From a virus, in the IMG/VR virus record IMGVR_UViG_3300042923_000319, positions 1 through 64,000 of that record: a DNA stretch of 64,000 nucleotides; one strand, 5' to 3'. Below, one piece after another: positions 39,926-63,403 of this stretch. Made by a program: the position numbers and the translations under genes. Within the stretch, counting starts at the first letter, position 1, and the number at the start of each line of letters is the position of its first letter. The notes beneath the pieces are model-generated. The model worked only from the letters and a program-made list of their open reading frames with translations. It had not been told where the DNA came from and ran no database searches.

Positions 39926-40573
39926 ATCGACATACTAGAACAATACCTACAAGACTACAACGACGGCATCCTATCGATCTCTACACTTACCGCAAGACTA
40001 TCCTGTCATGAGCTGGCAGAGATATATAAACAGACACGCAAGACCAGTCGTGTAGTGTCCAAGCTATCCGATTATATCTCACCGAAACTGCTGAACCCAC
40101 AAGACATTGTGTGTGAGCGCGAGAGATTACAGGAGATATCAGGAGTTGTCCAGAGAATACTCACAACTCTACCCGATAAGCAATATCAGATATTTCAGTT
40201 GGTTGTGATCGATGGTAGAACGCAGGAAGATGTAGGAGATACCCTTGGAATAGCACATCAAAATGTTAGTAAACATCTAAAGAAAGCTATCGAATTCATC
40301 AAAGAAAACTTTGAACTATCCTGTTTACGTCCTATGTTACTCCCAACGTCATCTACGAAGGAAATCGGTGGAGCACAGTACAAAGTAAGGTATCCCAGTG
40401 ATTGGCTCTCTGAACGAAGCACAGGTGGTCACATGGGTAAACGTAAATGGATCGTGGATATACATTGTGATGTCGATAGTTATCTCGATGATGCGTTTGG
40501 GGATAAACTGACAGTATGCGAAAAATGCGAACACTGTATCAACAAAGTAATGCGAAAGAGGGTTGAGGGGTAA
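39926..40573 (+). CDS. sigma-70-like transcription factor, probable AUC start
   Basis: 215 aa if begun at the ATC at 39926, exactly 8 nt after AAAGGAGG. The frame is closed by the upstream gene's TAA at 39920. The first GTG (40055) has no SD and would remove 43 residues of helical sequence (MDILEQYLQDYNDGILSIS). The central LPDKQYQIFQLVVIDGRTQ and VGDTLGIAHQNVSKHLKKA form a sigma region-4-type HTH. C-terminal Cys pair (CEKCEHC). As the last large early gene it may switch on late transcription. Confidence 0.7.
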   Translation: MDILEQYLQDYNDGILSISTLTARLSCHELAEIYKQTRKTSRVVSKLSDYISPKLLNPQDIVCERERLQEISGVVQRILTTLPDKQYQIFQLVVIDGRTQEDVGDTLGIAHQNVSKHLKKAIEFIKENFELSCLRPMLLPTSSTKEIGGAQYKVRYPSDWLSERSTGGHMGKRKWIVDIHCDVDSYLDDAFGDKLTVCEKCEHCINKVMRKRVEG

Positions 40574-40575
40574 CA

Positions 40576-40671
40576 ATGGAAAATCTAAATACACTTCTTA
40601 ACTGGATATTCCAAGACTTCTGGCATTTCATTGGAACATTATATTTACTCGCTGTAATATTTAGGAGGTAA
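40576..40671 (+). CDS. 31-aa membrane peptide
   Basis: ATG two bases after the preceding TAA, with GAGGGG as SD. One hydrophobic, Trp-rich helix. Ends FRR just inside the SD of the next peptide. Confidence 0.4.
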   Translation: MENLNTLLNWIFQDFWHFIGTLYLLAVIFRR

Positions 40672-40673
40672 TA

Positions 40674-40763
40674 ATGAATAAAGTTATCATCACACTTAAC
40701 TGTACTATTATATTCTTTATTATATTTTACTGGAATTCAATTATTTCATGGTTATATTCTTAG
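40674..40763 (+). CDS. 29-aa membrane peptide
   Basis: SD TAGGAGG before ATG. Nearly all hydrophobic (TIIFFIIFYWNSIISWLY). Its TAG forms the base of the operon terminator. Confidence 0.4.
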   Translation: MNKVIITLNCTIIFFIIFYWNSIISWLYS

Positions 40764-40790
40764 ACACCCAATGTGGTGTCTTATTTTTTT
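40762..40790 (+). terminator. strong terminator of the long rightward operon
   Basis: AGACACC and GGTGTCT form a 7-bp stem with loop CAATGT, followed by TATTTTTTT. Ends transcription from 26159. Confidence 0.85.
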
Positions 40791-40792
40791 TA

Positions 40793-40821
40793 CTGACAAT
40801 AAACTGTGGATATACTATAAT
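40793..40821 (+). promoter_or_regulatory. promoter of the HicB-like gene
   Basis: CTGACA, 17-bp spacer, TATAAT at 40816. No GTNNAC site overlaps it, so expression should continue in a lysogen. Confidence 0.7.
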
Positions 40822-40852
40822 TTAACTTACAATTAATATTGGAGGTAATATT

Positions 40853-41251
40853 ATGCCCAAAGACAATTACATTTTTCCTGCTATTTTAGATTATGCAGAT
40901 GATGGAATTACTATTGAGTTCCCCGATTTGCCGGGTTGTGTATCTTGTGCTGATACCGATGAAGAAGCTCTTTATATGGCCAAAGATGCTCTGCGAGGTT
41001 GGTTGATGGTAGCAGAAGATAACGAAATGGAAATTTCAGAGCCGACTCCTTTAAAGAAAGTTGTATTAGAAGAAAATCAACGTGTGGTCTTAGTAGAAGT
41101 TTGTTTGGCTTTTTATCGTGAAGCATATCGTAATAGATCAGTAAAGAAAACACTAACTATACCAGCATGGCTAAACGATTTGGCGGAAAAAGAAAACGTA
41201 AATTTTTCTTTTGCGCTACAAAATGCATTAAAGCAGCAACTTAAACCCTAG
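40853..41251 (+). CDS. HicB-family antitoxin-like protein (no HicA partner seen)
   Basis: 132 aa. FPAILDYADDGITIEFPDLPGCVSCADTDEEAL is the partial-RNase-H fold of HicB; the C-terminus (KKTLTIPAWLNDLAEKENVNFSFALQNAL) is a ribbon-helix-helix DNA-binding domain. HicB normally neutralises the HicA mRNA interferase; no HicA-size gene with its dsRBD-like fold is found beside it. With its own promoter and flanking terminators it looks like a moron gene expressed in the lysogen, perhaps to neutralise host or phage HicA toxins. Confidence 0.75.
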   Translation: MPKDNYIFPAILDYADDGITIEFPDLPGCVSCADTDEEALYMAKDALRGWLMVAEDNEMEISEPTPLKKVVLEENQRVVLVEVCLAFYREAYRNRSVKKTLTIPAWLNDLAEKENVNFSFALQNALKQQLKP

Positions 41252-41332
41252 AATACCTCTGGCGCTTCCTGTGTGCCTTACTGTGAAGTTTTTATGTATA
41301 TACCTACGTAACTGTATTAGTGGACATAAAAA

Positions 41333-41361
41333 GAACGCCCAGAGATTAATCTGAGGCGTTC
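41333..41361. terminator. bidirectional terminator
   Basis: GAACGCC-CAGA and TCTG-A-GGCGTTC form an 11-bp stem with one bulge and loop GATTAA. The minus strand continues TTTTTATG, so it closes the leftward module; it also caps the HicB-like transcript. Confidence 0.75.
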
Positions 41362-41378
41362 ATTGGGTTGTCAATAAT

Positions 41379-41576
41379 TTATTCTCTATATTCATCATAG
41401 ATTTCAATCTCTGCTTTCTTTCTAAAGAATATTATAAGGTCTTCTTCTATTATTTCTTGAAACTGTAACAACTCTTCCAAAGTTTTTATCTCTATATACC
41501 AATACTTTCCCTTTTGATACGCTTGTTCGCATGGCTTACTGGTATCGTCACAAGTTCTACCTATTTTAAATTCCAT
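41379..41576 (-). CDS. 65-aa hypothetical protein
   Basis: SD AAGGAGG before ATG. Acidic helical C-terminus (LLQFQEIIEEDLIIFF). Last gene of the leftward module. No family recognised. Confidence 0.45.
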   Translation of the reverse strand: MEFKIGRTCDDTSKPCEQAYQKGKYWYIEIKTLEELLQFQEIIEEDLIIFFRKKAEIEIYDEYRE

Positions 41577-41599
41577 TATTATTCCTCCTTGTCTAAAGT

Positions 41600-41878
41600 T
41601 TACAACTTTACATGTTCCTTGTAATTACTAGGTATTTCATTGTATATATTTATTTCCATGACACGAATATCGCTTGAATGATAGTCTTGAGTTTCAATAT
41701 ATTCCCTTGCTAATTCTTCTGTTGAGAAAATCAAGTCATCCATAATTTTCCCATTATAACTTGACAAGTAATAGATTAAGTATGCTTTTGTTATAACTTT
41801 ATTAGCTTTTAATTGCTCATTTTCTATACGATATTTTTCCTTAAGTTCAAACATTGCTTTGATAGTTGAATTATCCAT
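41600..41878 (-). CDS. 92-aa hypothetical protein
   Basis: SD AGGAGG before ATG. Helical N-terminus (AMFELKEKYRIENEQLKA) followed by a Tyr-rich alpha/beta part. Function unknown. Confidence 0.45.
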   Translation of the reverse strand: MDNSTIKAMFELKEKYRIENEQLKANKVITKAYLIYYLSSYNGKIMDDLIFSTEELAREYIETQDYHSSDIRVMEINIYNEIPSNYKEHVKL

Positions 41879-41892
41879 TGTTCTTCCTCCTA

Positions 41893-42675
41893 TTATCCAA
41901 ATACTCTACCTATGGCATTCTTTACCTGTTTACCGCTGATATTCAAGTACATCTGCGTACTCGCCATTGATTTATGCCCCATAGCAGCCTGTATGACTGA
42001 TATTGGCACATTATTATCATTCAATGTATTAGCAAAAAGTCTCCTAAAGCTATGCATATGATATTCACCGCATCCACAGTCTCTATAGACTTCCTTGAGT
42101 GTATCTTGGATTTGCTTTATGGATAACCTACCGCGATTCGATGTGAACAATGCGTCACACGTGTTCTGACGAACACTCAGATATTTCTGTAGTGCTTCCT
42201 TGACATTTGTTGTCATTGGCTTTGCTATATCTGTGTGATTCTTTGTATCCCTAACGATAATATCGTCTTGCTTGATATCCTCCAAGTCAATCCCTGTCAT
42301 CTCAGACACACGCAAGCCCATCTCTGATGCCATCAAGAAAGCAAGACGATACTTTGGGTCGCTAACGCTTCCCAATATTTTCTGATATTCTTCCTGAGTA
42401 GGGCAGGGTTGGAGCTTGCGGTTGACCTTGAAATTCTTGATTATGTCCAGGGATTTTGGAGAGTCCTTCCTTGAGTATTTCAAGAATTGACCAAGGATAA
42501 CAAGGCGATTCTTTATAGTTACATCGGATTGACTGCGTTGGCTTTCGATGTAGCGTAGGATATCCTGTGGTTCAAACGTGCGATAGCCAGAGAATGTCTT
42601 GAGTGCTTCCATGTAGGTTTTATAAGTGTTCTCTGTGCGTGTTATGCGGATTTCATTGAGGAATTGTTGGAACAT
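41893..42675 (-). CDS. second tyrosine recombinase, XerC/D-like
   Basis: 260 aa, the compact size of small Xer-like recombinases. N-terminal SAM-like domain, then catalytic Arg in GLRVSEMTGI, His/Arg in HSFRRLFANTL, GHKSMASTQ, and nucleophile Tyr in MYLNISG. Unlike the 399-aa integrase it has no arm-binding domain and no obvious att core beside it. Could resolve multimers of a circular phage genome or act in phase variation. Confidence 0.8.
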   Translation of the reverse strand: MFQQFLNEIRITRTENTYKTYMEALKTFSGYRTFEPQDILRYIESQRSQSDVTIKNRLVILGQFLKYSRKDSPKSLDIIKNFKVNRKLQPCPTQEEYQKILGSVSDPKYRLAFLMASEMGLRVSEMTGIDLEDIKQDDIIVRDTKNHTDIAKPMTTNVKEALQKYLSVRQNTCDALFTSNRGRLSIKQIQDTLKEVYRDCGCGEYHMHSFRRLFANTLNDNNVPISVIQAAMGHKSMASTQMYLNISGKQVKNAIGRVFG

Positions 42676-42689
42676 TTATTGCCACCACC

Positions 42690-43130
42690 TTAATAGTACA
42701 ATTGTTCTTTCAATGCTTTTACTTCTGCTTCCTTTGTCTTTAATTCATTGAGCTTATCCTCGATTTCACTAGGTATTACATAGATTCTCCTTTGTTCATC
42801 CCATTCAACCTTGATAAGCATAGTGTCACAAAATTGAGAAGCCCTAGGAGTATCAAGATGATACACTAAATGTTCTGAATTATACACCTTGTCTTTTTCG
42901 ATGCTCACAACCCTAAATTGTTTACCGCAATATTCCTCGTCTTTTCTAATAAATAACAGTCCACTTGTCTTTGTGCAGTCTGTGCGTATTCTTTTGTTAT
43001 GCTCATAGTATCCATATTGCTCTACCATTTGATCCCAACCTTTGATTATAACCATGTCGCCAACTTGAGGTAGAGTAGAGGATTTCTCTGGTTTACTATA
43101 GAGCCAATTGTGTATAAATGTAAACATCAT
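42690..43130 (-). CDS. 146-aa hypothetical protein
   Basis: SD GGAGGG before ATG. LPQVGDMVIIKGWDQMVEQ suggests a KOW/SH3-like barrel, with a C-terminal helix (LNELKTKEAEVKALKEQL). No function known. Confidence 0.45.
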   Translation of the reverse strand: MMFTFIHNWLYSKPEKSSTLPQVGDMVIIKGWDQMVEQYGYYEHNKRIRTDCTKTSGLLFIRKDEEYCGKQFRVVSIEKDKVYNSEHLVYHLDTPRASQFCDTMLIKVEWDEQRRIYVIPSEIEDKLNELKTKEAEVKALKEQLYY

Positions 43131-43213
43131 TATCCCTCCATTCGCTTTCGCTTATATTTTCGATGGTGCTACACAGAATACCAATAGTATCACGATTGCA
43201 GAGAGTACCATTG

Positions 43214-43843
43214 TTAGTCACCAGCTTTCATATGTTGTTCAAGGAATGGTTTAAAGTATTTTTCTTCAGCTTCCTTACGTGCTTTTATAGCATCGTTTTT
43301 ATTTGTAAAGCTTCCTATCCATATTTTTCTTTTTTGGAATCCAATATAAACACGCCATCTTTCATGTTTGCTATCGTAATAAACACCCCTATGCCCACTT
43401 GTATTATTTCTGGGAATTGTTTCGTTTTGTATTCTGCCCACATTGGTATTATCAACAACATTTATTTTTATTAAATCTGTAATATTGCCTACTCGTATAC
43501 ACCCACATGAATTTATTTTACCTTTCCTCATACAATGTCCATCAATAATTTTCTCAGTACCACAGTCGCATCTACATAGCCATTTTGAGCCATGCTCAGT
43601 TGTCTCAATAAATGATAAAACGGTTAGCTTACCGAATCTATTACCAGTAATATCCTTATACGTTCCTTTTGCGCTCGGTGGGATACGTTTGATCTGTTCT
43701 GGTCTTTTTATATCTTCTTTATTGATAACCCATATCCTTCCTGATTTTACTCCTTTTAATTTCCCATGAATTAACCATTCTCTTACTGTCTCTCTAGTAA
43801 CATTCATCAATACAGCTACTTGCTCTACAGTATATTTCATCAT
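43214..43843 (-). CDS. HTH - zinc - AP2 domain DNA-binding protein
   Basis: 209 aa; ATG pair after AAGGAG. Residues ~1-45 are an excisionase-like HTH (YTVEQVAVLMNVTRETVREWL). A Cys cluster (CRCDCGTEK...INSCGC) is of the kind found next to AP2 domains. Residues ~145-200 (SGHRGVYYDSKHERWRVYI) are an AP2 domain. AP2 domains with zinc modules are usual in phage homing HNH enzymes, but the HNH part is absent, so this may be a regulator or a remnant. Confidence 0.65.
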   Translation of the reverse strand: MMKYTVEQVAVLMNVTRETVREWLIHGKLKGVKSGRIWVINKEDIKRPEQIKRIPPSAKGTYKDITGNRFGKLTVLSFIETTEHGSKWLCRCDCGTEKIIDGHCMRKGKINSCGCIRVGNITDLIKINVVDNTNVGRIQNETIPRNNTSGHRGVYYDSKHERWRVYIGFQKRKIWIGSFTNKNDAIKARKEAEEKYFKPFLEQHMKAGD

Positions 43844-43964
43844 TAACACTCCTTAGTTCTTTGAACTGTCATAATTTCTTTTACAGTTAATACCTTCGCC
43901 ATACCCTATGAAACGCTACCGCTGAGCACACCCAAGACTATCATAGGGTATAACCAGGATATCA

Positions 43965-44282
43965 TTATGCGACTCTTTGTAGATTGCTGTGTTTAGTTGT
44001 ACGGTTGTATTCATTGGCTACCTGTGTAAATGCTTGGTTGTACTTATATGTATCCGCTAAGGCTAACGTAGGCAGTGTAGATGCGATGTTTGCCACTGAT
44101 ACACGAAAGAGTTTTTCCTTAAATACCTGTGGATACATTGATGTTAGCTTTAGGAATTCTATAGAGATTTCATTGGTGATATCATCAAGATAGCTACTTG
44201 AAATGTTCGATAGTTTAGCGTTGATGTCCTCCTGTAGGTCTTGTAGCATTTCCTCTAGTAAGTCGATGGTTTTCATAGTCAT
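43965..44282 (-). CDS. 105-aa helical hypothetical protein
   Basis: ATG after AAAGGAG. Helical throughout (DLLEEMLQDLQEDINAKLS). No family recognised. Confidence 0.45.
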   Translation of the reverse strand: MTMKTIDLLEEMLQDLQEDINAKLSNISSSYLDDITNEISIEFLKLTSMYPQVFKEKLFRVSVANIASTLPTLALADTYKYNQAFTQVANEYNRTTKHSNLQRVA

Positions 44283-44303
44283 GATCGTTATTCTCCTTTA
44301 GTT

Positions 44304-44543
44304 TTATTTTAGATTTAGAATTGGTAATCCAATGAATTCATTAAACATCGTGTGTATCAGTATAGGTTGACCGTTGTATTCCTTTATTTTATCAATAAAC
44401 CATTCTACAGAAATACTGTTATCAACCATTTCCATTATGTTGAAGCATTCTATGGCTATTTCATTTGCTATATCTGAATCATAACCTTTGGCTATAATCA
44501 TTTTGGTAGCTTTACGCATATTATTGTAAGTTCTTATTTTCAC
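44304..44543 (-). CDS. 79-aa hypothetical protein
   Basis: GTG start overlapping the upstream TGA and lying exactly 8 nt after AAAGGAG. Helical. No motif recognised. Confidence 0.45.
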   Translation of the reverse strand: MKIRTYNNMRKATKMIIAKGYDSDIANEIAIECFNIMEMVDNSISVEWFIDKIKEYNGQPILIHTMFNEFIGLPILNLK

Positions 44544-44656
44544 CCTAAACACTCCTTTGCAACTTCATAGATTTTATAGACACCACACCAGAATACAATA
44601 GCTATCAATATGCAGGCTATGAGTGCACTAACCTTACGCCAGTCGATGTTGCTCAT
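44540..44656 (-). CDS. 38-aa membrane peptide
   Basis: ATGA overlap upstream and GTGA overlap downstream. One hydrophobic helix (VSALIACILIAIVFWCGVY). Function unknown. Confidence 0.4.
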   Translation of the reverse strand: MSNIDWRKVSALIACILIAIVFWCGVYKIYEVAKECLG

Positions 44657-44748
44657 GGTTTCACCTGTGCTTTCTGCTGTGATACCGCTAACAATAACCG
44701 TTTGAAGTCTTTGTTTTTACCTTTAAATGACATTGATGCACGTTTCAT
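44653..44748 (-). CDS. 31-aa basic peptide
   Basis: SD AAGGAGG before ATG. Lys/Arg-rich (KRASMSFKGKNKDFKR). Coupled to both neighbours by overlaps. Confidence 0.4.
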   Translation of the reverse strand: MKRASMSFKGKNKDFKRLLLAVSQQKAQVKP

Positions 44749-44984
44749 TTCTGTGAGCCTCCTTGAAGTGGTGTTAAATCGTTAGGTTTTACCAAGGTGA
44801 CAAGGACTCTATGCCCTATATTAATTTCTATTTTTGACCACCCAAGTTTCATAAGTTGTTCATAGCCATAAGTCCATGAGTTTGCACTTTCACATTCATA
44901 AAGATATATTGCATTCCGATATTTTTCTAAATTATTTAAAGATAATACATTTTGTTCATCTTCTGTTAATTCATAGCTTTTCAT
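44745..44984 (-). CDS. 79-aa hypothetical protein
   Basis: ATGA overlap with the upstream 27-aa gene. Alpha/beta with a WSKIEINIGHRVLVTLV strand pair. No family recognised. Confidence 0.45.
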   Translation of the reverse strand: MKSYELTEDEQNVLSLNNLEKYRNAIYLYECESANSWTYGYEQLMKLGWSKIEINIGHRVLVTLVKPNDLTPLQGGSQK

Positions 44985-45064
44985 TTATTCGCACCATCCT
45001 TTGATTTATCAATGTAGTTCACCATGAGGATCAATAGTAATTCACGTTTGATTGTGGTTTTCAT
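44981..45064 (-). CDS. 27-aa peptide
   Basis: ATG overlaps the stop of the preceding gene. Short amphipathic helix (TTIKRELLLILMVNYIDKS). Included because its overlaps on both sides fit the operon; otherwise weakly supported. Confidence 0.3.
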   Translation of the reverse strand: MKTTIKRELLLILMVNYIDKSKDGANK

Positions 45065-45276
45065 AACGCTGCGCTTGCCTCCTGTAGTTCTGTTTTGAAG
45101 AAATATAATATTTCATTACCGACTTTATCAAAATAACCTTTGTATGATTTTATATATTCATCATGTTTAACCCCATATCTAAACCATTGGTTACTCTCTG
45201 TGCCATAAGCACCCTCTAAGTCAACTATAGTTCCATTACCATATTTTGTGATTACTCTTTGTCCGACTTTCATCAT
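45061..45276 (-). CDS. 71-aa KOW-like hypothetical protein
   Basis: ATG pair after AAAGGAATGAG. KVGQRVITKYGNGTIVDLEG is a KOW/SH3-barrel start similar to the N-terminus of the phage dUTPase. Function unknown. Confidence 0.45.
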   Translation of the reverse strand: MMKVGQRVITKYGNGTIVDLEGAYGTESNQWFRYGVKHDEYIKSYKGYFDKVGNEILYFFKTELQEASAAL

Positions 45277-45289
45277 TAACTCATTCCTT

Positions 45290-45511
45290 TCAATAAAATG
45301 TATAGTTTCCTTGGTTGACACCACATTCAATAATAGAGTCTAATTCTTCCTCTAGTTCTCTTTGTGTATTGTGCGCTGATACTACAGTATTTGTGTTATC
45401 AAAGCAGATAAACCAGCTTTTACCATAGTATCTATCATCGTAGTTAATAGGATTATCAGTAACATACATTGATTTTAGTTTATTGACTTTCTCTGCAATT
45501 CTTTTAATCAT
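45290..45511 (-). CDS. 73-aa hypothetical protein
   Basis: Charged helix, then aromatic strands (YYGKSWFICFDNTNTVVSA). No family recognised. A divergent extended -10 (TGTTATAAT near 45539) for the next rightward gene lies just upstream. Confidence 0.45.
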   Translation of the reverse strand: MIKRIAEKVNKLKSMYVTDNPINYDDRYYGKSWFICFDNTNTVVSAHNTQRELEEELDSIIECGVNQGNYTFY

Positions 45512-45573
45512 TTGTAATCACTCACTTTCTATGTTATAATTTAGGGAAATATTGATAAGATAGGGGTAGTATT

Positions 45574-45834
45574 ATGGAAATTGATAAAATGAAAAATTTA
45601 GCTATGGCAGTTTGTAATCGCACTATGAGGTTTAGAGATAATCATAGTATCCAGAAGTTTGTCTATGAGCTTACAGAGAATCGAATGAGCAGTGACACCA
45701 TTAACATTAAACTTCTACAGTTGTTTTCTAGTGCTTCTATGCCAGTCCCAATGTTTGACACAGAAGAGGAACTAAGGAAATTTAGGTTGGTTGTTTGTTG
45801 GTGTGCTACACAACATTTTAAGAAGAAAGCTTAG
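45574..45834 (+). CDS. 86-aa hypothetical protein, opposite to its module
   Basis: Only rightward gene within the leftward module, with its own extended -10 (TGTTATAAT, 45532-45540). Cys/Met-rich helical protein. Its 3' end overlaps the convergent 53-aa gene by 17 nt. Could be an independently expressed lysogen gene. Confidence 0.45.
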   Translation: MEIDKMKNLAMAVCNRTMRFRDNHSIQKFVYELTENRMSSDTINIKLLQLFSSASMPVPMFDTEEELRKFRLVVCWCATQHFKKKA

Positions 45835-45979
45835 TTAATTTTAAATATTTATCAAAGATTGTCTTTGGATTTACGTTGTATTCACATTCGCCATACCATA
45901 GAATTCTAAAGGTGTTCGATAGCTCGAATTGTGAGCCGTAGAGTTCTAAGGTGTAGCCGTGGAAGCGGTAGCGTTTCAT
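45818..45979 (-). CDS. 53-aa hypothetical protein
   Basis: ATGA overlap with the upstream 58-aa gene. Aromatic beta-rich start (KRYRFHGYTLELYG). No motif recognised. Confidence 0.4.
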   Translation of the reverse strand: MKRYRFHGYTLELYGSQFELSNTFRILWYGECEYNVNPKTIFDKYLKLTKLSS

Positions 45980-46152
45980 AGTGGTGCTCTCACTTTCTTG
46001 ATTTTTATCCCAGTTAATCCACTAGCATTTTCACGATAACATTTGAGCTGTGTCTTAGCTTCTTTATATGTTTCTTCCGTGAGTTCAACTTCCCAACCAT
46101 AGCCATAATTAGTGATAAGCTGATATTCGTCTTTGGTTTTGCGTATATACAT
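45976..46152 (-). CDS. 58-aa hypothetical protein
   Basis: ATG 46152 follows ACGGAGGG; a longer frame upstream crosses operator-like site 13 and is unlikely. Alpha/beta (YIRKTKDEYQLITNYGYGWE). Function unknown. Confidence 0.45.
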   Translation of the reverse strand: MYIRKTKDEYQLITNYGYGWEVELTEETYKEAKTQLKCYRENASGLTGIKIKKVRAPL

Positions 46153-46189
46153 TTTGTATTCCCTCCGTTTATTTATTAGTTTATCATTG

Positions 46190-46207
46190 GTATACCGATG
46201 CGTATAC
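46190..46207 (-). promoter_or_regulatory. operator-like site 13 (leftward sense)
   Basis: Plus strand GTATAC CGATGC GTATAC; minus strand GTATAC GCATCG GTATAC, identical to site 7 and in the sense of local transcription. No clear -35 here. Confidence 0.65.
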
Positions 46208-46231
46208 GGTGGGTATCGGTTTGTAACGTTG

Positions 46232-46495
46232 TTACATTTCAACGATTCTTAGTGCTATTTTGTTACCGTCTTGTATTGCTCCGTCCCATACATAAGTATC
46301 ATTAAATAGTGCGTGGTGGATACCATCGATTTTTACATAGCCTGTTCTATGATACCCTACTTGTTCCAAGAATTTAGTCAAGAAGTCGAGTAAGTTGTCT
46401 ATGTTACGATCTACCTGTAGTTCCCAAACTTTAGCTTTTACTGGTCGTCCGTGGTTAACACTAAGGTTGCTTATAAACTCTTCATATGCTGTCAT
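46232..46495 (-). CDS. 87-aa hypothetical protein
   Basis: First gene behind the leftward operator-controlled promoter at 46564. Alpha/beta; FLTKFLEQVGYHRTGYVKIDG. No family recognised. Confidence 0.45.
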   Translation of the reverse strand: MTAYEEFISNLSVNHGRPVKAKVWELQVDRNIDNLLDFLTKFLEQVGYHRTGYVKIDGIHHALFNDTYVWDGAIQDGNKIALRIVEM

Positions 46496-46534
46496 TGTTT
46501 ATCATAGTTTGCCTTTGTTATCTTCTGTATCTCT

Positions 46535-46564: not shown

Positions 46565-46568
46565 CGTT

Positions 46569-46814: not shown

Positions 46815-46815
46815 T

Positions 46816-49130: not shown

Positions 49131-49156
49131 ATGTTCAAAAACAGGAGGTTATAACA

Positions 49157-50020
49157 ATAATAGATTTAGAACAGCTTGTTCAAACAACATGGTGCTCTGC
49201 AAATAAAGATTTGTATGTGAGCAAAGGATATGTTTACACAAAGATGTTTGATAAATTTTATGTCCATGCTAAAGACTTACCATTAAAATATGCTGTCAAA
49301 GTAAAATATACTTGCAATGCTTGTAGAGAAGAATTTGAAATTAATTACTATAGTTTTAATATTAGTAATAGTTGTTTATGTAACCATTGTGCCACTAAAA
49401 CTATCGTAGCGCAAAAGCTAAAAAAGCCATTTAGTGATGTCAGAGCAGCGTTTTTAGCTCGTGGGTATATATTAATATCACCTAAAGGCGATTACAGGAA
49501 TAGCACAAGTAAATTAGTATGCACATGTAAAGTACATGGGGAATTCACCACAACGTATCAATCTATTTCTATGGGTCAAGGTTGTCCGCAATGCGCCATA
49601 GATAACCATAAAGGCTTAGGCAATCCAAACTACAAAGGTGGCATTACCGAAATCGCAAAATATCTCCGCAACCAATTATCGCCTTGGATTCAACAGCAGT
49701 TACAACGAGCTGGTTGCAAATGCGAAATAACTGGAAAAACAGGAATTTTAAATGTGCATCATATGTATTCTTTTAAAAACATTCTCGATAAAACTATGGA
49801 AGAACTTAATATTGATATTCGTCCAAACATAGGAAACTATAGCGGAGATGAACTTCAACTAATTACAGTAAATTTCCTCAAGAACAACATTCTTCTAGCC
49901 AAACCCATAGTAATGCTAGAATCAATTCATAGAGATTTCCACAAGTTTTGCGGAGGAACAGCTAAAGAAACCACCTATGCACAACTAAGAGAATTCAAGA
50001 AACAACTCTTATCAGCATAA
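49157..50020 (+). CDS. HNH homing endonuclease with zinc modules, probable AUA start
   Basis: 287 aa if started at ATA 49157, exactly 8 nt after GGAGG. The paralogue at 62003 has GTG at the aligned codon (ATA-ATA-GAT versus GTG-ATA-GAT) and is 288 aa, so the AUA start is well supported. Cys pairs near residues 54-80 and 120-145 form zinc modules; GNPNYKGG is NUMOD3-like; the HNH core is CEITGKTG...LNVHHMYSF...HRDFHKFCGG. Likely a mobile, free-standing endonuclease inserted before the terminase genes. Confidence 0.75.
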   Translation: MIDLEQLVQTTWCSANKDLYVSKGYVYTKMFDKFYVHAKDLPLKYAVKVKYTCNACREEFEINYYSFNISNSCLCNHCATKTIVAQKLKKPFSDVRAAFLARGYILISPKGDYRNSTSKLVCTCKVHGEFTTTYQSISMGQGCPQCAIDNHKGLGNPNYKGGITEIAKYLRNQLSPWIQQQLQRAGCKCEITGKTGILNVHHMYSFKNILDKTMEELNIDIRPNIGNYSGDELQLITVNFLKNNILLAKPIVMLESIHRDFHKFCGGTAKETTYAQLREFKKQLLSA

Positions 50021-55359: not shown

Positions 55360-56970
55360 ATGGATGACATAGTACTACATGACTTATTCCTCGGTTCAGA
55401 CGAAACAAGACCAGATGAAGATCAGCCACTCAAAGAACAATGTAGATATTCACTAAAACTATTCTGTGAAACCTATCTCAAACATTGGTTCTACGCTCCA
55501 TGGTGTGGTTTTCACTTAGAAATTATCCAGATGCTCGAAGATTTAACCTTTGCTAAAACACGAAGAAAACAATACACAGCAGTGGCAAGTCCTAGAAAGC
55601 ATGCCAAGACAACCATAGTGTCCAAGGCTTATTCATTATGGCTTATATGTTACAAACATGAGCCAAACATCGTACTTATCGCTGATACCATCGGTCAATC
55701 GTGTGAGTACTTAGATGACGTTAAGAATGAGATTGAATCCAATGATTTACTCATAGCTGACTTCGGTAATCTCATGGGTAAACTGTGGAGAAACAATCAG
55801 ATCACAACGGCAAACGAAGTCACTATAACATGCAAAGGTACTGGCAGTAAAATTCGTGGGATGGCTAAGAGAGGTCGTCGTCCAGGTATTTTCATAATGG
55901 ATGAATTGGAAAATGATGAGTTCGTAGAAAACGCCAATATCCGTAAGAAACTTCGCTCATGGCTCACTAAGGCTGTCATTCCATCATCCTGTGAAACTGG
56001 TAAGTTCTTCATTATCGGAACCATCATGCATGAAGATAGTCTTTTGAATAATCTTCTGAACAGCAAAGAGTTCTCTTATTGGAAGCGATATTTTTACCAA
56101 GCAGTCCAAGAGTTCAGCGAAAGTCCTCTGTGGGATGAATGGGTAGCCATCATGGAAAACGAGGAATCCAATGATTCCGAGGAACAAGCCTACCAGTTCT
56201 ATAAGGATCACAGAGATGAGATGCTGAAGGGTGTTAAGGCTCTCTGGATGGACAACTATGATGATTACTACTATGACATGATGGTAATGAAGTGGTCTGA
56301 CCCAGATGCATTCTCAAGTGAAGAAATGAATGTCGCGATATCACCAGAAAATCAAACGTTTACCGCAGAGTTGCTTGATAGTGTTACATTCGATGATATT
56401 CCATGCAAGATAACCGAGATAAAAATTGGTGTAGACCCTAGCCTTGGCAAGAGTAAGAAAAGCGATCTATCGTCAATCTGTGCTGTAGCCAGAGGTGAAA
56501 ACGGCAAACTCTACGTTATTGACGTTGACGCCAAGCGCAGGAAGGTTGATATTCTCGTCGAGGATGTCTTTAGTATGGCTATGAAATACAATGATAAATT
56601 ATCGAAAATCAATATTGAAGCCAACGGATTGCAACATTTGTTCTTAGAACAATTTGTGATGGCTAGTGAGAAAACTGGCGTTTACTTTGCATACGAAGGT
56701 ATCAAAACAGATAGCAATAAGGAAATCAAGATTCAAGCATTGGCTCCTAAGATGAAGCAAGGCTCACTTAAGATACACCGTAGACTCAAGACATTACGCA
56801 ATGAATTACTGGCGTTTCCAAAAGGCAAGACTGATGACATCATGGATTCTGTTTGTTTGGCTATTGATGGTGCGTTCACATCTTCTGGATTCTGCTTCAC
56901 ATCATTGCCAGGATCAAGAGAGTCTCATCGACACGTAGGTATCAATAATTTTCTTAATAGGAGGAGGTGA
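55360..56970 (+). CDS. terL: terminase large subunit
   Basis: 536 aa. The ATPase P-loop region is ASPRKHAKTTIVSKA (residues ~75-90), with GIFIMDELEND as Walker B. The nuclease domain contains KIGVDPSLGKSKKSDLSSICA and KTDDIMDSVCLAIDGA, supplying the acidic residues. ATP-driven motor and nuclease that packages the genome. SD TAGGAGG. The TGA overlaps the start region of the portal gene. Confidence 0.9.
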   Translation: MDDIVLHDLFLGSDETRPDEDQPLKEQCRYSLKLFCETYLKHWFYAPWCGFHLEIIQMLEDLTFAKTRRKQYTAVASPRKHAKTTIVSKAYSLWLICYKHEPNIVLIADTIGQSCEYLDDVKNEIESNDLLIADFGNLMGKLWRNNQITTANEVTITCKGTGSKIRGMAKRGRRPGIFIMDELENDEFVENANIRKKLRSWLTKAVIPSSCETGKFFIIGTIMHEDSLLNNLLNSKEFSYWKRYFYQAVQEFSESPLWDEWVAIMENEESNDSEEQAYQFYKDHRDEMLKGVKALWMDNYDDYYYDMMVMKWSDPDAFSSEEMNVAISPENQTFTAELLDSVTFDDIPCKITEIKIGVDPSLGKSKKSDLSSICAVARGENGKLYVIDVDAKRRKVDILVEDVFSMAMKYNDKLSKINIEANGLQHLFLEQFVMASEKTGVYFAYEGIKTDSNKEIKIQALAPKMKQGSLKIHRRLKTLRNELLAFPKGKTDDIMDSVCLAIDGAFTSSGFCFTSLPGSRESHRHVGINNFLNRRR

Positions 56971-56975
56971 TAAAA

Positions 56976-58286
56976 CTGAAATGGTATCAAAAATTATTCT
57001 CAGCAAGACCTAGATCAATCCCTGCTCCAACAGCAGAAACATCCGAAGCAGACTCATGGGGACTTAATAAGTTGCTCCCACGCAGATATCGAACCTATGG
57101 GTTAAACAAGAATAAGCAAAGGCAATTACGACAGTTATCTCGTAGCGGTATCATAAGGCGTGGTATTGAGCGAATTAAGCGTGGCGTAAAGAACCTCGAT
57201 TATGAGCTTGAAATCCAAGGTAAGATGAGTAACAAACAACAGGAACAATTAAGAGCAGCCATTGATACAGTTCTGCAATCACCAAATATAATCCATGATT
57301 ATGATGCGTTTATCGACATGATACTTGAGGATTTGATAGTGCTTGATGCAGGAGTATTTAATGTAGTTAAGGGTGGCAATCCAATGCGACCTCTCTTTTT
57401 ATACCCTGTTGACTCTATGACAATTGAGATACTACAACCGTATGACTTTACTAACCCCAATGGTGATCGATATGTACAACGAGCATCATGGGCTATCGAC
57501 GAGAAAACGTTTAGTACAACCGATATGGCATATCTACAGATCAACCACTTTACTGATACACCGTATGGCTTAAGTCCAATTGAGAAACTATGGCGATATC
57601 TTAACTACTTTATGGATGCTCTTGATAATGCTTCTGATATCGCATCTGCTGATACACCAAAATTCATAGTCGGTCTTAAGAATGCCGAAGATGGAAAACT
57701 CAAGAAATTCCAAGAATACATGCTTAATGAAATCGAAGGAACTGGACACATACCGATAGTTGGCGGTGAGGTTGATAGTAAGCAAATAGGAGCTATCAAT
57801 AGTGATTCATTATTCCTTGAATGGCAAAAGTTCTTACTGACACTCGTCGCTAAATGCTTTGACTTACCAGAGTCATTCTTTATTACTGCTGATGTTAATG
57901 ACCGCAATAACTTATCTGAGGTTGAACAGCAGGTACTCATGGAAGCTGTTAAACCTTATGCAAAGGTTATTCAAAGGGCTATTAATGTAAACGTCATACA
58001 GGCTATGGGAATTTACAATGTTAAATTCAAGTTTAAATATGACGAAACAGAAACAGAGAAGAAAACCAAGGAAGACAGAATCAGTAACAAATATTTACGT
58101 GGTGTTATTACTCAGAATCAAGCATTGGTTGAACTTGGTTATCAATTGAGCACATCGAAATACGCTGATTTAACCATAACTGAAGCCAAGGCTAAAATCA
58201 ATAAAGACTTTGCTGTAAACACTGGCGGATTTAACGGTCAAGGTTCAGCAAAAGACAATAGTAATCCAGAAACTAAGACGGGTTAA
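56976..58286 (+). CDS. portal protein, probable CUG start
   Basis: 436 aa. RRYRTYGLNKNKQRQLRQLS, GIERIKRGV and HFTDTPYGLSPIEKLWRYLN match HK97-type portals. Start: CTG at 56976 lies exactly 8 nt after the second AGGAGG. The GTG at 56967 overlaps that SD and is only 2 nt from the first AGGAGG; an ATA at 56970 is also possible. Forms the dodecameric DNA gate at the capsid vertex. Confidence 0.8.
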   Translation: MKWYQKLFSARPRSIPAPTAETSEADSWGLNKLLPRRYRTYGLNKNKQRQLRQLSRSGIIRRGIERIKRGVKNLDYELEIQGKMSNKQQEQLRAAIDTVLQSPNIIHDYDAFIDMILEDLIVLDAGVFNVVKGGNPMRPLFLYPVDSMTIEILQPYDFTNPNGDRYVQRASWAIDEKTFSTTDMAYLQINHFTDTPYGLSPIEKLWRYLNYFMDALDNASDIASADTPKFIVGLKNAEDGKLKKFQEYMLNEIEGTGHIPIVGGEVDSKQIGAINSDSLFLEWQKFLLTLVAKCFDLPESFFITADVNDRNNLSEVEQQVLMEAVKPYAKVIQRAINVNVIQAMGIYNVKFKFKYDETETEKKTKEDRISNKYLRGVITQNQALVELGYQLSTSKYADLTITEAKAKINKDFAVNTGGFNGQGSAKDNSNPETKTG

Positions 58287-58299
58287 GGAGGTGATAACG

Positions 58300-59265
58300 A
58301 TAGATAAACTACAGTTACAAATACAAGATTTAAGTTTTACAACAGACCAAAAGCATTGTAATGTTATGACTTGGACAGGCGCAGTAACAAAGGTTGGTGT
58401 TCCTAGCGATTACACGCCAGGTGGCGCAGAGACACCTGTGGTATGGGAAAGAGAAGCTGTAGAAGCTGCCAAGGATACAATGTTAGAAATGCCATTGAAC
58501 TGCGAATATCCAGATGATGAATGGTTCAGTAATCCAGCACTGGCTTTTACACAGCATAACACCAGATTTGTCATTGGCTCTGTGCGAAAGACATGGATTG
58601 ATGGTGAAAACTTTATGTGCTCAGGGATTATCTGGAAGGATAACTTTGCAGATGTCGCATGGATGATTCAAAATGCTAAAGATGCACTAGGATTTTCCGT
58701 AGAGCTTTATCCATTAGAGCACGAGGCACAAGCTGATGGTTATGACCATATTACCAAACTTGAATTTACAGGTTTGACTATATGTTGGAAAAACGTAGCT
58801 GCATTTTCCGATACATTCTTAACTCAATTAGCAGCATCAAGAAAAATCAAAAACGAAAAGGTGGATGATACAATGACTCCAGAAGAAATGAAAGCAATGT
58901 TAGAAGGTTTTACCCAAAGCATGACAGCAGAAATTGCTAAAGTACAATCCAGTGTTGAATCTAAGGTAGACGCATTGGAATCCAAAATTAAAGTACAGGA
59001 AGAAGCAGAGAAAGTCGAAGCTTCTAAAAAGGTCGAAGCCGATGCATTAGCTAAGGTAGAAGCTGAAAAAGAAGCATTGAAAGCGGAATTAGCTAAAGTT
59101 CAAGCATCAGTAATTCCAGCTCCAGCAGCAGTGCAAACAGCAGCATCTAAAGATAATACAGTGGATTATACTGGCGAGTTCGCTAAAATTAACCAAATGA
59201 ATTGCAGTGTTTCAGAAAAAGTAAAACTTAGAGCTTCATTGGCACTTAAAGCAACAGCAATCTAA
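58300..59265 (+). CDS. capsid protease-scaffold fusion, probable AUA start
   Basis: 321 aa from ATA 58300, 8 nt after AAGGAGG; the in-frame GTG at 58291 overlaps the SD itself. Residues ~1-185 resemble a prohead protease (NVMTWTGAVTKVGVPSDYT, DALGFSVELYP). From ~190 a Lys/Glu/Ala coiled coil looks like a scaffold. An internal ATG at 58873 has its own AAAAGGTGG 8 nt upstream, so a free 130-aa scaffold is likely, as with lambda C/Nu3. Confidence 0.75.
   Translation: MDKLQLQIQDLSFTTDQKHCNVMTWTGAVTKVGVPSDYTPGGAETPVVWEREAVEAAKDTMLEMPLNCEYPDDEWFSNPALAFTQHNTRFVIGSVRKTWIDGENFMCSGIIWKDNFADVAWMIQNAKDALGFSVELYPLEHEAQADGYDHITKLEFTGLTICWKNVAAFSDTFLTQLAASRKIKNEKVDDTMTPEEMKAMLEGFTQSMTAEIAKVQSSVESKVDALESKIKVQEEAEKVEASKKVEADALAKVEAEKEALKAELAKVQASVIPAPAAVQTAASKDNTVDYTGEFAKINQMNCSVSEKVKLRASLALKATAI
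58873..59265 (+). CDS. nested scaffold protein from internal start
   Basis: In-frame ATG with AAAAGGTGG exactly 8 nt upstream, at the junction between the protease-like and coiled-coil parts. Product 130 aa, rich in Lys, Glu and Ala (SKVDALESKIKVQEEAEKVE). Would supply excess scaffold during head assembly. Inference by analogy with lambda Nu3. Confidence 0.55.
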   Translation: MTPEEMKAMLEGFTQSMTAEIAKVQSSVESKVDALESKIKVQEEAEKVEASKKVEADALAKVEAEKEALKAELAKVQASVIPAPAAVQTAASKDNTVDYTGEFAKINQMNCSVSEKVKLRASLALKATAI

Positions 59266-59283
59266 TATCAATAATTTCTTATG

Positions 59284-59308
59284 GATCACCAATGGGTGGT
59301 CTTTTTTA
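59284..59308 (+). terminator. terminator before the capsid gene
   Basis: GATCACC-AATG-GGTGGTC and then TTTTTT. 7 bp with one G-U pair. Confidence 0.75.
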
Positions 59309-59338
59309 TTTACCCAAAAATGAGAGGATGATGAATTA

Positions 59339-60406
59339 ATGAATAACAGTTTTTTATTTAATCAATACGCAGGGGAAACTTATAACAAGTATGTTAATGC
59401 AGTACAACAAAGAGCTACGGCTAGAAAAATGGCAGCAGCAGGTATCACGACTCCGACATTAAACGAAGGTCATAACATTCACTTAGCATTGTTTGAAGAT
59501 ACGATTTATGACTACTTAAACCGTGATCTTTCAATCTACAACTTGATCCCTTCTTATGAAGCTACTGGGCAACCTACATTGTGGTTTGAACAAACGAAAC
59601 GTCCAGAAAATGAACAGTTTAGTTCTCCTACGAGCTTAACATATAAAGCTATCGATGCAGACTATGGTCGTGTTCCAAAATCAGCGATGATCAAATGTAT
59701 TACCTCTAAATTTAATGTTCCATTCTTCAATACCTTGGTGGCTCGTCAACAAAACGCATTGCCAGACTTTGTTGCTAAGGATATTGAAGATTGGGCTTAC
59801 AGCTTAAAACGCTTTATAAACACTAAATTATACTATGGCTCTGACACTGACTTGGCTACGCCAACTACTACAGAATACATGGGTATTATGAAGCAAATAA
59901 CTAACATTGCTACAAAAGCTTATACTGATACCGCTACTCATATCACAGACATTCTTGAAACTGAAATTGCAGCTATGGATTCTGACATTGTTAACAACAC
60001 TGGTTCTGGTAATGATTTAATCATTATGATGAATGGTATGACGATGGACAAATGGGTTAAACAGGAACGTGCGTTAAATTCTAACTTCCGTCCTGAAACT
60101 GCTGAAGTTCGTCCTGGTTTCAATATTCCAGCAATCAGAACAGCTAAAGGATTAATCCCAGTTATTACCGATAATTTCATCAATACCACTGCTGAAACTG
60201 GTTATACAAATCACCCAATTGTCGTATTGAACCGTCGCATGGTTGAACGTCGTTACATCGGTTCTCCAGACCCAATGGTATTTGATTGGAATATGGGGAA
60301 TGACCAATTAACCACTGATAAACTTGCGGTATTATTCGACAACGTAATTGTTCGTGGTGGTTCATTTGCTCATGCGTTAGTTAATTATCAAGTAGCAACA
60401 GCATAA
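59339..60406 (+). CDS. major capsid protein
   Basis: 355 aa, between scaffold and connector genes. IYDYLNRDLSIYNLIPSYEATGQ and FDNVIVRGGSFAHALVNYQVA suit an HK97-fold capsid protein; GFNIPAIRTAKGLIPVITDNF is typical of the A-domain region. Followed by a strong terminator, so it can be the most abundant late product. SD GAGAGGATG weak to medium. Confidence 0.8.
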   Translation: MNNSFLFNQYAGETYNKYVNAVQQRATARKMAAAGITTPTLNEGHNIHLALFEDTIYDYLNRDLSIYNLIPSYEATGQPTLWFEQTKRPENEQFSSPTSLTYKAIDADYGRVPKSAMIKCITSKFNVPFFNTLVARQQNALPDFVAKDIEDWAYSLKRFINTKLYYGSDTDLATPTTTEYMGIMKQITNIATKAYTDTATHITDILETEIAAMDSDIVNNTGSGNDLIIMMNGMTMDKWVKQERALNSNFRPETAEVRPGFNIPAIRTAKGLIPVITDNFINTTAETGYTNHPIVVLNRRMVERRYIGSPDPMVFDWNMGNDQLTTDKLAVLFDNVIVRGGSFAHALVNYQVATA

Positions 60407-60411
60407 TCTAT

Positions 60412-60437
60412 GGGAGCTTAACGGCTCCCTTTTTTAT
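60412..60437 (+). terminator. terminator after the capsid gene
   Basis: GGGAGC and GCTCCC, 6-bp stem, followed by TTTTTTATTTT. Confidence 0.8.
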
Positions 60438-60457
60438 TTTCAAGAAAGGGTGAGTAA

Positions 60458-60667
60458 ATGGCTGGTAAAACTATGGCAATCAAAAAAGATACCAAAGAAA
60501 AAATAGAATCAGTAAAAGTAAAGTTAAACAAAAAGAAAATCGAAGCAAAACTTGGACATGCCCCAGCTTCTATATATGTCAATGGTAATAGACTAGTTGT
60601 ACATGAGGATGAACGTAATGTTTCTGCTGAATTTGCAGAGTTATTAAAGAGTGAAGGATTGATCTAA
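60458..60667 (+). CDS. 69-aa basic head protein candidate
   Basis: Lys-rich N-terminal half, then GHAPASIYVNGNRLVVHEDERN, a beta-hairpin pattern seen in small head/neck proteins. Last base shared with the next ATG. Role inferred from position only. Confidence 0.5.
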   Translation: MAGKTMAIKKDTKEKIESVKVKLNKKKIEAKLGHAPASIYVNGNRLVVHEDERNVSAEFAELLKSEGLI

Positions 60668-61221
60668 TGCCTAAATATCTACAGCTTTCAGAAGTTCCAA
60701 CCTATTGTGAATACTTCGACGATATCACAGAAACAACAATAGACCATGCTGAGTCGCTTGTGGATTCCTACTTAGGTCAAGACCTTATGGAAGCTACGGA
60801 TACTTGGGAAGGTAAACTCACAAGAAAAAACACAGGGAAGCTTGGACATACCAATGTTACTACAATATTGAGCGTTAAAGCTGTGTATAAGACACCTGTT
60901 GGATTCCAAGAATCACCAATTGATGTATCAAGTGTCTACTGTGACCATAATGGGTATTTTGAGTACACCCCGTTCATATCTGCGATGTCAATTAATGCTT
61001 TCTTAGGATATCCACTGTATCGTATGAAGATTGACTATAAGCATGGTTATTTAACAGCTCCTACTAATTTAAAACGTGCGGTTGCTATGATTGCTCAGAA
61101 TATGAGTGAGAAGAAAACATTTGGTAATATCAAAAGCTATTCTAACCTTGAAGGACAAATGGCACTCTTTGATGAGTCGGTATTCACTAAAGATATTAGA
61201 ATGTTGTTGGATTCATTATGA
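60667..61221 (+). CDS. head-tail connector protein (gp6-like)
   Basis: 184 aa. A helical N-terminus (TIDHAESLVDSYLGQDL), then LTRKNTGKLGHTNVTTILSVKAV and KRAVAMIAQNMSEKK, as in DUF3199/gp6-type adaptors that bind the portal. Gene order capsid - connector - closure fits. Confidence 0.65.
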   Translation: MPKYLQLSEVPTYCEYFDDITETTIDHAESLVDSYLGQDLMEATDTWEGKLTRKNTGKLGHTNVTTILSVKAVYKTPVGFQESPIDVSSVYCDHNGYFEYTPFISAMSINAFLGYPLYRMKIDYKHGYLTAPTNLKRAVAMIAQNMSEKKTFGNIKSYSNLEGQMALFDESVFTKDIRMLLDSL

Positions 61222-61757
61222 TAGAACCATTAAATATGTTTAGGTCACAATGGCAGACTGCAAAAATCAAAGGTAAGGCTGATGAGCACATTGTGATCAC
61301 AAGGTCTGAAAAAAGTAATTCTCAAACTAACTATAATTATATCCGTAAAGGTACTGTGAAACGAAAAACAGCTATTGTAAACGGTGATTTTATTACAGTT
61401 GATAATGATGATTACTTTGTAACTGGATCAATGCCCACACAGGTTAAATTGATAAAAACCAACTGTACTGTTGATATCTACAAAGTAACTGGTAGTAACG
61501 CTAGTGGATTTACAAAAGCATTGTTATCCACTAGCAACCCAAGCTTTCAAAGGACTGTTAGTGATAATATGAGGCTTTACGACGCTGGTTTACTACCACT
61601 GACAGTAAAGAAATTCATATTACCTGCGTTAGACATTACACTTACCAATAGGATTGTATTTAATGGTATCAATTATTCAATTAATGCAATTGACAATAGT
61701 AAATACGAGAATCTATTGGAAGTCCAAGTTGAACCAGATAAGAGAAACGCTAAATAG
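61218..61757 (+). CDS. head closure / connector protein candidate
   Basis: 179 aa, ATGA overlap with the adaptor. Beta-rich (TVKRKTAIVNGDFITVDNDDYF). Position suggests a stopper; family not recognised. Confidence 0.5.
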   Translation: MIEPLNMFRSQWQTAKIKGKADEHIVITRSEKSNSQTNYNYIRKGTVKRKTAIVNGDFITVDNDDYFVTGSMPTQVKLIKTNCTVDIYKVTGSNASGFTKALLSTSNPSFQRTVSDNMRLYDAGLLPLTVKKFILPALDITLTNRIVFNGINYSINAIDNSKYENLLEVQVEPDKRNAK

Positions 61758-61768
61758 GAGTGATTTAG

Positions 61769-61945
61769 ATTAAACCAAATAACTTCATCAATGAGTATCC
61801 TTGTACTTTCGTCGAAGAGCATAAGTTTCTTCAACAGAATGGATTTAAATATAACTTTGTCAAAGTAGTTGATGGAGTTACTACTTGGAAATATCCGAAG
61901 TCACGAGAAATATATCAAAAGTTACAAGAATTTTATTACAAATAA
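61769..61945 (+). CDS. 58-aa protein with AUU start
   Basis: ATT at 61769 is 8 nt after AGGAG. The codon before it is TAG, and the whole 58-codon frame has no ATG, GTG, TTG or CTG. NNFINEYPCTFVEEHKFLQ and VDGVTTWKYPKS look like coherent protein, including a DGVTTWKY strand found in small phage proteins. Position in the connector cluster. Function unknown. Confidence 0.55.
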   Translation: MKPNNFINEYPCTFVEEHKFLQQNGFKYNFVKVVDGVTTWKYPKSREIYQKLQEFYYK

Positions 61946-61978
61946 CCACTTGAGAGAAATCTTGGGTGGTTATTTTTA
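61941..61978 (+). terminator. terminator before the second endonuclease gene
   Basis: AATAACCAC and GTGGTTATT flank an inner stem with GAGAAATC; TTTTTATG follows. Overlaps the preceding stop codon. Confidence 0.75.
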
Positions 61979-62002
61979 TGTTCAAAATAGGAGGGTTATA
62001 GA

Positions 62003-62869
62003 GTGATAGATATGGAGCAAATAGTTGAAACAAAATGGTCTTCTGGTAATAGATGGTTGTATGAAGAAAAAGGATACGTATTTACTAAAAAGAACGATAC
62101 TTTATATGTTAAAGTAAAAGATTTATCATTAAATTCTCATATAAAGGTAAAATATACTTGTGATATGTGTGGTAAAGATTTACAAGGTTCTTATCAAATG
62201 TTTAATAGAAGTAAAGATAGTTTATGCTGTGCTTGCGCCACTAAAACAAAATCAGCAGATAAACGCAAGAAATCATTTGAAAAAGTAAAAGAAACTATAG
62301 AATCAAGAGGTTATCAGTTATTATCCACGGAAAATGATTATAAAAGAAATACGAGCAAATTATTATGCGTGTGTAAAGAACATGGTAATTTTATATCGAC
62401 GTATAAATTAATATTCAAAGGGTGTGGATGTCAAACTTGCGGAGTAAAAAGAAGAAGTGGTGAGAATCATCCATTCTGGAATGGTGGAACAACTGCAATA
62501 GGACATTATCTCCGAGATATTATTGTTCCATGGACTCACCAACAACTACAACGTACTGGTTGTAAATGTGAATTGACTGGCAAATATGGCACTCTTAATG
62601 TTCATCACATGTATTCTTTTAGCAATATTATTAAAGATACTATGGAAGAATTACAACTTGATATTAGACCAAATATAAGCGACTACAGTGAAGACGAGCT
62701 TCAACTGATAGTCGTTAATTTTTTGAAAAATAACGAACTAAAAGCTAAACCAATTGTGATGCTTGAGTCAGTTCATAGGGACTTTCACAAGTTTTGTGGT
62801 GGCACATCTAAAGATACTTCATTCAAACAACTAGAAGAATTTAAGAAGATGTTTAAGGAGGTGGTTTAA
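62003..62869 (+). CDS. HNH homing endonuclease with zinc modules (paralogue of 49157)
   Basis: 288 aa, GTG start 8 nt after AGGAGG. Cys pairs CDMCGKDL, CCACATK, CKEHGN and CGCQTCG; NUMOD3-like GENHPFWNGG; HNH core CELTGKYGTLNVHHMYSF...HRDFHKFCGG. Same length and upstream context as the copy before the terminase. Inserted between connector genes; its 3' end supplies the SD for the next gene. Confidence 0.8.
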   Translation: MIDMEQIVETKWSSGNRWLYEEKGYVFTKKNDTLYVKVKDLSLNSHIKVKYTCDMCGKDLQGSYQMFNRSKDSLCCACATKTKSADKRKKSFEKVKETIESRGYQLLSTENDYKRNTSKLLCVCKEHGNFISTYKLIFKGCGCQTCGVKRRSGENHPFWNGGTTAIGHYLRDIIVPWTHQQLQRTGCKCELTGKYGTLNVHHMYSFSNIIKDTMEELQLDIRPNISDYSEDELQLIVVNFLKNNELKAKPIVMLESVHRDFHKFCGGTSKDTSFKQLEEFKKMFKEVV

Positions 62870-63403
62870 ATTTTTGAACCACAGATAGCTTTAATTCTCC
62901 ATTCATGGAGCCGAGGAGTTGCAGCAACATTAGAAGCAAAATGGGGGAATTTGAGTGGCATCGACGGTACAGGTAAAGTTCTCGAAGATTCACCATTTGT
63001 TCAAAGCGGTAACATTGTTGAGTATATACGATGCGTTGGTGCTCGTGCGTGGATTGGAGAATATGGAGGTGGTTCGGAAGCTGATTTATTGAATCCTTAT
63101 TTGGACGAATACGTTAATAATCCTAACTTCAACCATTACCGTAGTAAATCAGACATGACGGTTCGCGGTCGTGACGCTGGCGAGTATCTTGACCTTAACG
63201 GAGAAGCCCACGAATCTACAGGCAGAGCTGCTGGTAAGGACTTGGAATTAAAGCCAGTATATCAAGGAATGTCGATGCCACCGATGCACATTATCGAAGA
63301 AAATATCCAAGCATCACTCCCAGATTTGTATGCTAGGCTCAGCGTCGTAATCCCACAGCTCATAGCACAACAACTTGCCATCGATTTCACAGTAACCATA
63401 TAG
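62870..63403 (+). CDS. tail completion protein (HK97 gp10-like), AUU start
   Basis: 177 aa from ATT 62870, 8 nt after AAGGAGG and directly after the in-frame TAA of the endonuclease. The first canonical codon is a TTG 81 nt downstream without SD. FEPQIALILHSWSRGVAATLEAKWG forms a plausible helical start. The C-terminal part (SMPPMHIIEENIQASLPDLYARL) resembles the gp10-type family joining head and tail. Confidence 0.65.
   Translation: MFEPQIALILHSWSRGVAATLEAKWGNLSGIDGTGKVLEDSPFVQSGNIVEYIRCVGARAWIGEYGGGSEADLLNPYLDEYVNNPNFNHYRSKSDMTVRGRDAGEYLDLNGEAHESTGRAAGKDLELKPVYQGMSMPPMHIIEENIQASLPDLYARLSVVIPQLIAQQLAIDFTVTI

Follow-up and report, generated by a model that had tools for sequence, protein, structure and literature searches.

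Ribosomes normally reject AUA, AUU, AUC and CUG as start codons, and in the bacterial genes infC (AUU or AUA start) and pcnB (AUU) an AUH start limits expression. The phage sites described here resemble infC in placing a weak start behind a strong Shine–Dalgarno sequence (SD); infC and pcnB are host housekeeping genes, however, with infC under IF3 feedback, whereas here the genes belong to a phage and include those for portal and protease. In S. aureus, expression from AUU or AUA behind an extended SD is about 10% of that from AUG, rising to 30% in a single case and medium (PMC13009471). As in the phage, the S. aureus genes cvfC1 (AUU), ccpN and infC (AUA) combine a near-cognate codon with an SD extended toward the start, conserved across relatives (PMC13009471). 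The output of that class was measured, at about 10–30% of AUG, whereas the phage starts are known from sequence and CTG and ACG also occur in the phage family. Non-canonical starts are likewise fixed in core genes of another member of the Firmicutes, Listeria, where infC begins with ATT and rnhC with ATC and reporter expression follows the order ATG>ATA>ATT (PMC13068326). The frequency differs, at 6 of 2265 core genes in Listeria (PMC13068326) against six or seven of about 100 genes in the phage. For tailed phages, the Phage Annotation Guide lists CTG, ATT and ATC as starts (PMC8785237); the portion that carries this list includes neither ATA nor ACG and draws no link between weak starts and portal or protease.

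A sequence-only reading of this DNA had stated that it knew of no phage for which such starts were described. Given the guide's list of CTG, ATT and ATC and the established AUU and AUA starts of S. aureus, this is too strong. Our literature search found no paper describing a weak-start pattern in portal or protease genes. The kind of start is known from infC and from S. aureus cvfC1 and ccpN; its occurrence in phage head genes appears to be new. We propose that these codons are probably real but weak translation starts, anchored by their SDs and low in output, with a dosage that would suit portal and protease.

The window analyzed, a 64-kb stretch of DNA, is part of a 72,676-base IMG/VR virus record. 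Judged by gene content, which includes integrases, anti-repressors, a DnaE-type polymerase, terminase, portal and capsid, the source is a temperate tailed phage; no close relative emerged when named phages were searched by nucleotide and by protein sequence. Two integrase-like genes lie in this single record, at 13586–14785 (−) and 41893–42675 (−). The 334-aa product of the gene at 21742–22746 (+) shares 58% identity with a radical SAM protein from Bacteroides phage Versailles, although the remaining phage genes look Gram-positive. A second IMG/VR contig spans five of the six weak-start sites with 100% identity across 17,025 bp; it may be this very phage, sequenced from a sister sample. Because of this identity, sequencing or assembly error is unlikely at those five sites, and we discarded it there as the source of the weak codons.

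Six probable weak starts and their SDs

All six non-canonical codons named in the sequence-only reading are present with their SDs; each differs from AUG by one base, and at SD distance no canonical codon is available. The proposed arrangement of a perfect SD followed by exactly 8 nt holds for five sites, which have AGGAGG-N8, and not for 61769, which has AGGAG only, with a spacing of 8 nt from AGGAG or 7 in the AGGAGG register. The poverty of alternative starts was likewise borne out at 39926, 61769 and 62870, and the GTG at 58291 lies inside the SD of the gene that it would begin.

The first site belongs to a sigma-like gene (region 4, PF04545; 39911..40573, +), in which the SD AAAGGAGG precedes ATC at 39926 by 8 nt and opens a frame of 215 aa. 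An in-frame stop lies 3 nt upstream, and the next ATG, GTG or TTG is codon 43, which has no SD. A scan for relatives of this protein found none, and its alignment with phrog_36 begins at residue 4. An HNH-type endonuclease gene (49143..50020, +) has AGGAGG, 8 nt and ATA at 49157 (287 aa). In the portal gene (56959..58286, +), AGGAGGAGGTGAT overlaps the terminase stop, offers 10 contiguous pairs and is followed after 8 nt by CTG at 56976 (436 aa). The next gene (58285..59265, +), of protease/scaffold type as judged by its position, has 11 contiguous pairs in AAGGAGGTGAT, then 8 nt and ATA at 58300 (321 aa).

The remaining two sites flank a paralogue of the HNH endonuclease (61989..62869, +), which itself starts with GTG at 62003 behind AGGAGG-N8. 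Before it lies a 58-aa ORF (61756..61945, +) with AGGAG and then ATT at 61769; it contains no ATG, GTG or TTG anywhere, its SD is short and a homologue search found none. This is the weakest of the six cases, its sole argument being the lack of alternatives. Behind the paralogue, the gene at 62854..63403 (+), whose position suggests a head-tail or tail-completion role, has its SD, AAGGAGGTG, inside the paralogue's 3′ end, then 8 nt and ATT at 62870 (177 aa); a stop immediately precedes this codon, and no canonical start follows until codon 27.

Two further cases had been called probable. The one at 30184 gains support: in a DUF1064 endonuclease-like gene (30169..30696, +), ATA follows AGGAG at a spacing of 9 and overlaps an upstream TAG, the next canonical start is codon 20 without an SD, and the DUF1064 alignment runs from residue 3, so that ATA is the probable start. 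The one at 21374 gains none, with a weak SD, no N-terminal homology and an overlapping TAG at which none of the listed ORFs of 60 aa or more ends.

We scanned the whole 72.7-kb record for SD sites that pair with the 16S tail over 7 or more contiguous positions; a site without a canonical start was counted if the frame behind it stays open for 60 codons or more and a stop lies close upstream. Of these strong sites, 32 have a canonical start and 7 others an open frame of this kind, and five of these 7 have ATA, ATA, ATT, ATC or CTG in frame at spacing 8. Against a background frequency of about 0.086, which counts ACG along with the near-cognates ATA, ATT, ATC and CTG, this is an excess (binomial p = 8e-5). 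In a bacterium harboring a related prophage, the same scan of 400 kb returned 85 canonical sites, 29 others and none that was near-cognate (Fisher p = 0.002 against the phage record). SDs are also longer at weak starts, with 7–11 pairs, than at canonical starts, with 6–9 (p = 0.001, 5 vs 63); none of the canonical starts in the record has an SD of more than 9 pairs. Five of the six weak starts show a longer SD than usual, the exception again being 61769. Among the longest SDs of the record is also AAGGAGGTGA (10 pairs; 17600–17690, +), which leads only into a 24-codon GTG ORF, possibly a leader peptide, upstream of a 74-aa gene at 17726.

An altered genetic code or initiator tRNA was considered and rejected, as TAA, TAG and TGA all end genes and the apparent starts comprise ATA, ATT, ATC and CTG alike. 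ARAGORN detected no phage-encoded initiator tRNA, returning only tRNA-Trp and tRNA-Thr.

Aligned starts in relatives and paralogues

Relatives were gathered through terminase, protease and portal alignments; protease relatives occur in only five genomes of the two bacterial orders searched. The sequence-only reading had suggested asking whether conservation begins at the proposed codon, and comparison with homologues supports the proposed codon for the protease, the portal, 62870 and the endonuclease at 49157. Its central claim, that the non-canonical codons are true starts, is supported to differing degrees: by an orthologue or paralogue in these four, by domain alignment at 39926 and the additional 30184, and by absent alternatives at 61769.

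In L011 (60% identical), L073 and L046, too, the residue aligned with the protease ATA at 58300 is encoded by ATA. Elsewhere the aligned start is ATG (L015, L181), GTG (L175), TTG (L171, L250) or apparently ACG (L014, L186, L174, L184). Across the first 22 codons, the phage and L011 differ at 5, 4 and 13 sites in codon positions one, two and three, mostly the third, and this bias from the ATA onward would be the mark of a coding sequence that starts there. At the portal CTG (56976), L011 also has CTG, while G259 and most homologues have TTG and two, L178 among them, have ACG. For the other two genes the counterpart is canonical. The G259 orthologue of 62870 has ATG exactly at the aligned codon, and the endonuclease at 49157 aligns without gaps from residue 1 with its paralogue at 62003 (57% identical), placing ATA opposite GTG, both behind AGGAGG-N8. 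The weak start itself is kept in the portal of L011 and in the proteases of L011, L073 and L046. G259 (portal 64% identical) had been expected to share these starts, yet no near-cognate start at a strong SD was found there and both portal and protease begin with TTG, which limits the claim of systematic use. Because G259 has no such start, the high density of weak starts in this phage is not a lineage rule.

The relatives also bear on the possibility that portal and protease start at an in-frame GTG within the SD (56967 and 58291), which would leave only the other cases near-cognate. These GTGs are canonical and in frame in this phage, and a gene finder would call the starts there; indeed, the mechanical ORF list begins both genes at them. 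However, neither has a usable SD upstream, and the combination of AGGAGGTG with spacing 8 places a GTG three codons ahead of the true start and in its frame, so that the GTG would be a by-product of the SD. In the proteases of L011 and L073, moreover, an in-frame TGA 6 nt upstream of the aligned ATA takes the place of the GTG, which is therefore unusable there, and ATA still stands at the aligned start; sister loci use ATG or TTG at the downstream site. For the portal and protease of this phage in particular, it is only SD geometry and these relatives that would exclude the GTG. We regard initiation at the GTGs as improbable and favor the downstream CTG and ATA.

Portal and protease starts across the family

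If weak initiation sets the dosage of these two proteins, the capsid gene offers a contrast. In this phage the major capsid protein gene (59339..60406, +) starts with ATG. Start codons in the wider family were tallied over non-redundant loci scored by hand and eye, with the related loci not independent of one another. Portal starts are TTG (13), ATG (5), GTG (3), CTG (2) and ACG (2); protease starts are ATG (9), ACG (5), TTG (5), ATA (4) and GTG (3), with two ambiguous. The capsid gene has ATG in 19/22 loci and p60667 in 20/22, and neither has a near-cognate start. Over these related, hand-curated loci, portal and protease together use ATG in 16/53 cases vs 39/44 for capsid and p60667 (p = 4e-9), and near-cognate codons in 13/53 vs 0/44 (p = 2e-4). 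The proposal that portal and scaffold are kept low is consistent with this family-wide pattern of weak portal and protease starts set against a capsid ATG. From this pattern and the contrast with G259, we conclude that the phage is an outlier in the number of its weak starts within a family where weak portal and protease starts are common.

A comparable start appears in the Mu-like head protease (PF10123) of the Paenibacillus prophage loci L118, L122 (13978) and L151 (14057), which has CTG at spacing 8. It shares with the phage gene its role as a head protease and the aligned CTG at spacing 8, with an extended SD in 2/3 loci; it differs in belonging to an unrelated protease family, and its CTG starts apparently arose independently. 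Among other candidates, a 544-codon gene at the terminase position of G008 (L221–L224; 40185, +) has an apparent ACG start behind AGGAGGTGAT, and a 1482-codon prophage gene in G007 (L217–L220; 13546, −) has an apparent ATT start behind AAAGGAG at spacing 8. An ATA in the terminase of L010 was discarded as evidence, as two codons further upstream there is an ATG that has an SD.

Weak initiation and a proposed role in protein dosage

At 39926, 56976, 58300, 61769 and 62870, and also at 30184, a stop upstream is no more than about 15 nt from the start. Local reinitiation after the upstream gene might then tolerate weak codons, and the codon would be a by-product of neutral drift or insertion rather than a means of dosage control. 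Such a reading suits the scattered, unrelated genes at 39926, 49157 and 30184. It also suits 62870, where the adjoining endonuclease gene (61989–62869) is absent from this junction in L011 and G259; the ATT directly behind it may be an insertion scar. The endonuclease is likely a homing insertion, and together with the 58-aa ORF it separates two head-tail genes found side by side in L011 and G259. Against reinitiation as the general explanation, 49157 has neither a close upstream stop nor a closely adjacent listed upstream gene, portal and protease keep weak starts family-wide while equally packed neighbors keep ATG, and the longer SDs of weak starts hint at selection for retained output. We consider neutral reinitiation unlikely, if still deserving of some weight; coupling to the upstream gene may nonetheless help at the five starts that closely follow a stop.

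Under the preferred reading of SD-anchored weak initiation, a long SD of up to 10–11 contiguous pairs, reaching into GGUGAU, would hold the 30S subunit so that the near-cognate codon 8 nt downstream falls in the P site, where the initiator tRNA would read it as formyl-Met. The position of the codon, its SD, and its conservation or interchange are seen directly in the sequence and its comparison with relatives; formyl-Met at residue 1, low output and a benefit in dosage are what we infer from them. Output would be low and determined by the codon and the SD together. In portal and protease, a weak start would be the usual state, drifting among TTG, GTG, CTG, ATA and ACG, and such drift would fit dosage control of low-copy proteins.

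It is also conceivable that the starts sense IF3, with low IF3 raising expression and tying assembly to the translation state of the host. The weak starts are of the same codon class as that of infC, and in two bacteria with related prophages (L202, L203) infC begins with AUU behind AGGAGGTG, for which reason AUU discrimination is probably present in those bacteria, which may not be the host of this phage. However, no phage infC was found in the record, nothing ties IF3 level to the phage cycle, and relatives carry ACG, TTG and GTG at the same sites, codons that do not appear to be known as one IF3-response class. An IF3 sensor thus seems a long shot, and weak initiation fixed by codon and SD remains our preferred account.

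Far fewer copies of portal and protease than of capsid protein must be made, and in tailed phages it is often unexplained how such ratios arise from one transcript. Weak starts with compensating SDs would, if true, give a simple and testable answer for portal and protease dosage. Such starts would have been overlooked because an ORF list picks the GTGs within the SDs; many annotated phage proteins may then carry three false N-terminal residues or lack their true start, and the start-codon tables of gene finders would conceal a layer of control. In bacteria, ACG starts would be noteworthy if they were confirmed. We hold it to be about an even chance that, throughout this family of temperate Firmicutes phages, portal and protease levels are set by fluid weak starts with extended SDs, a dial hidden from view by a decoy GTG.
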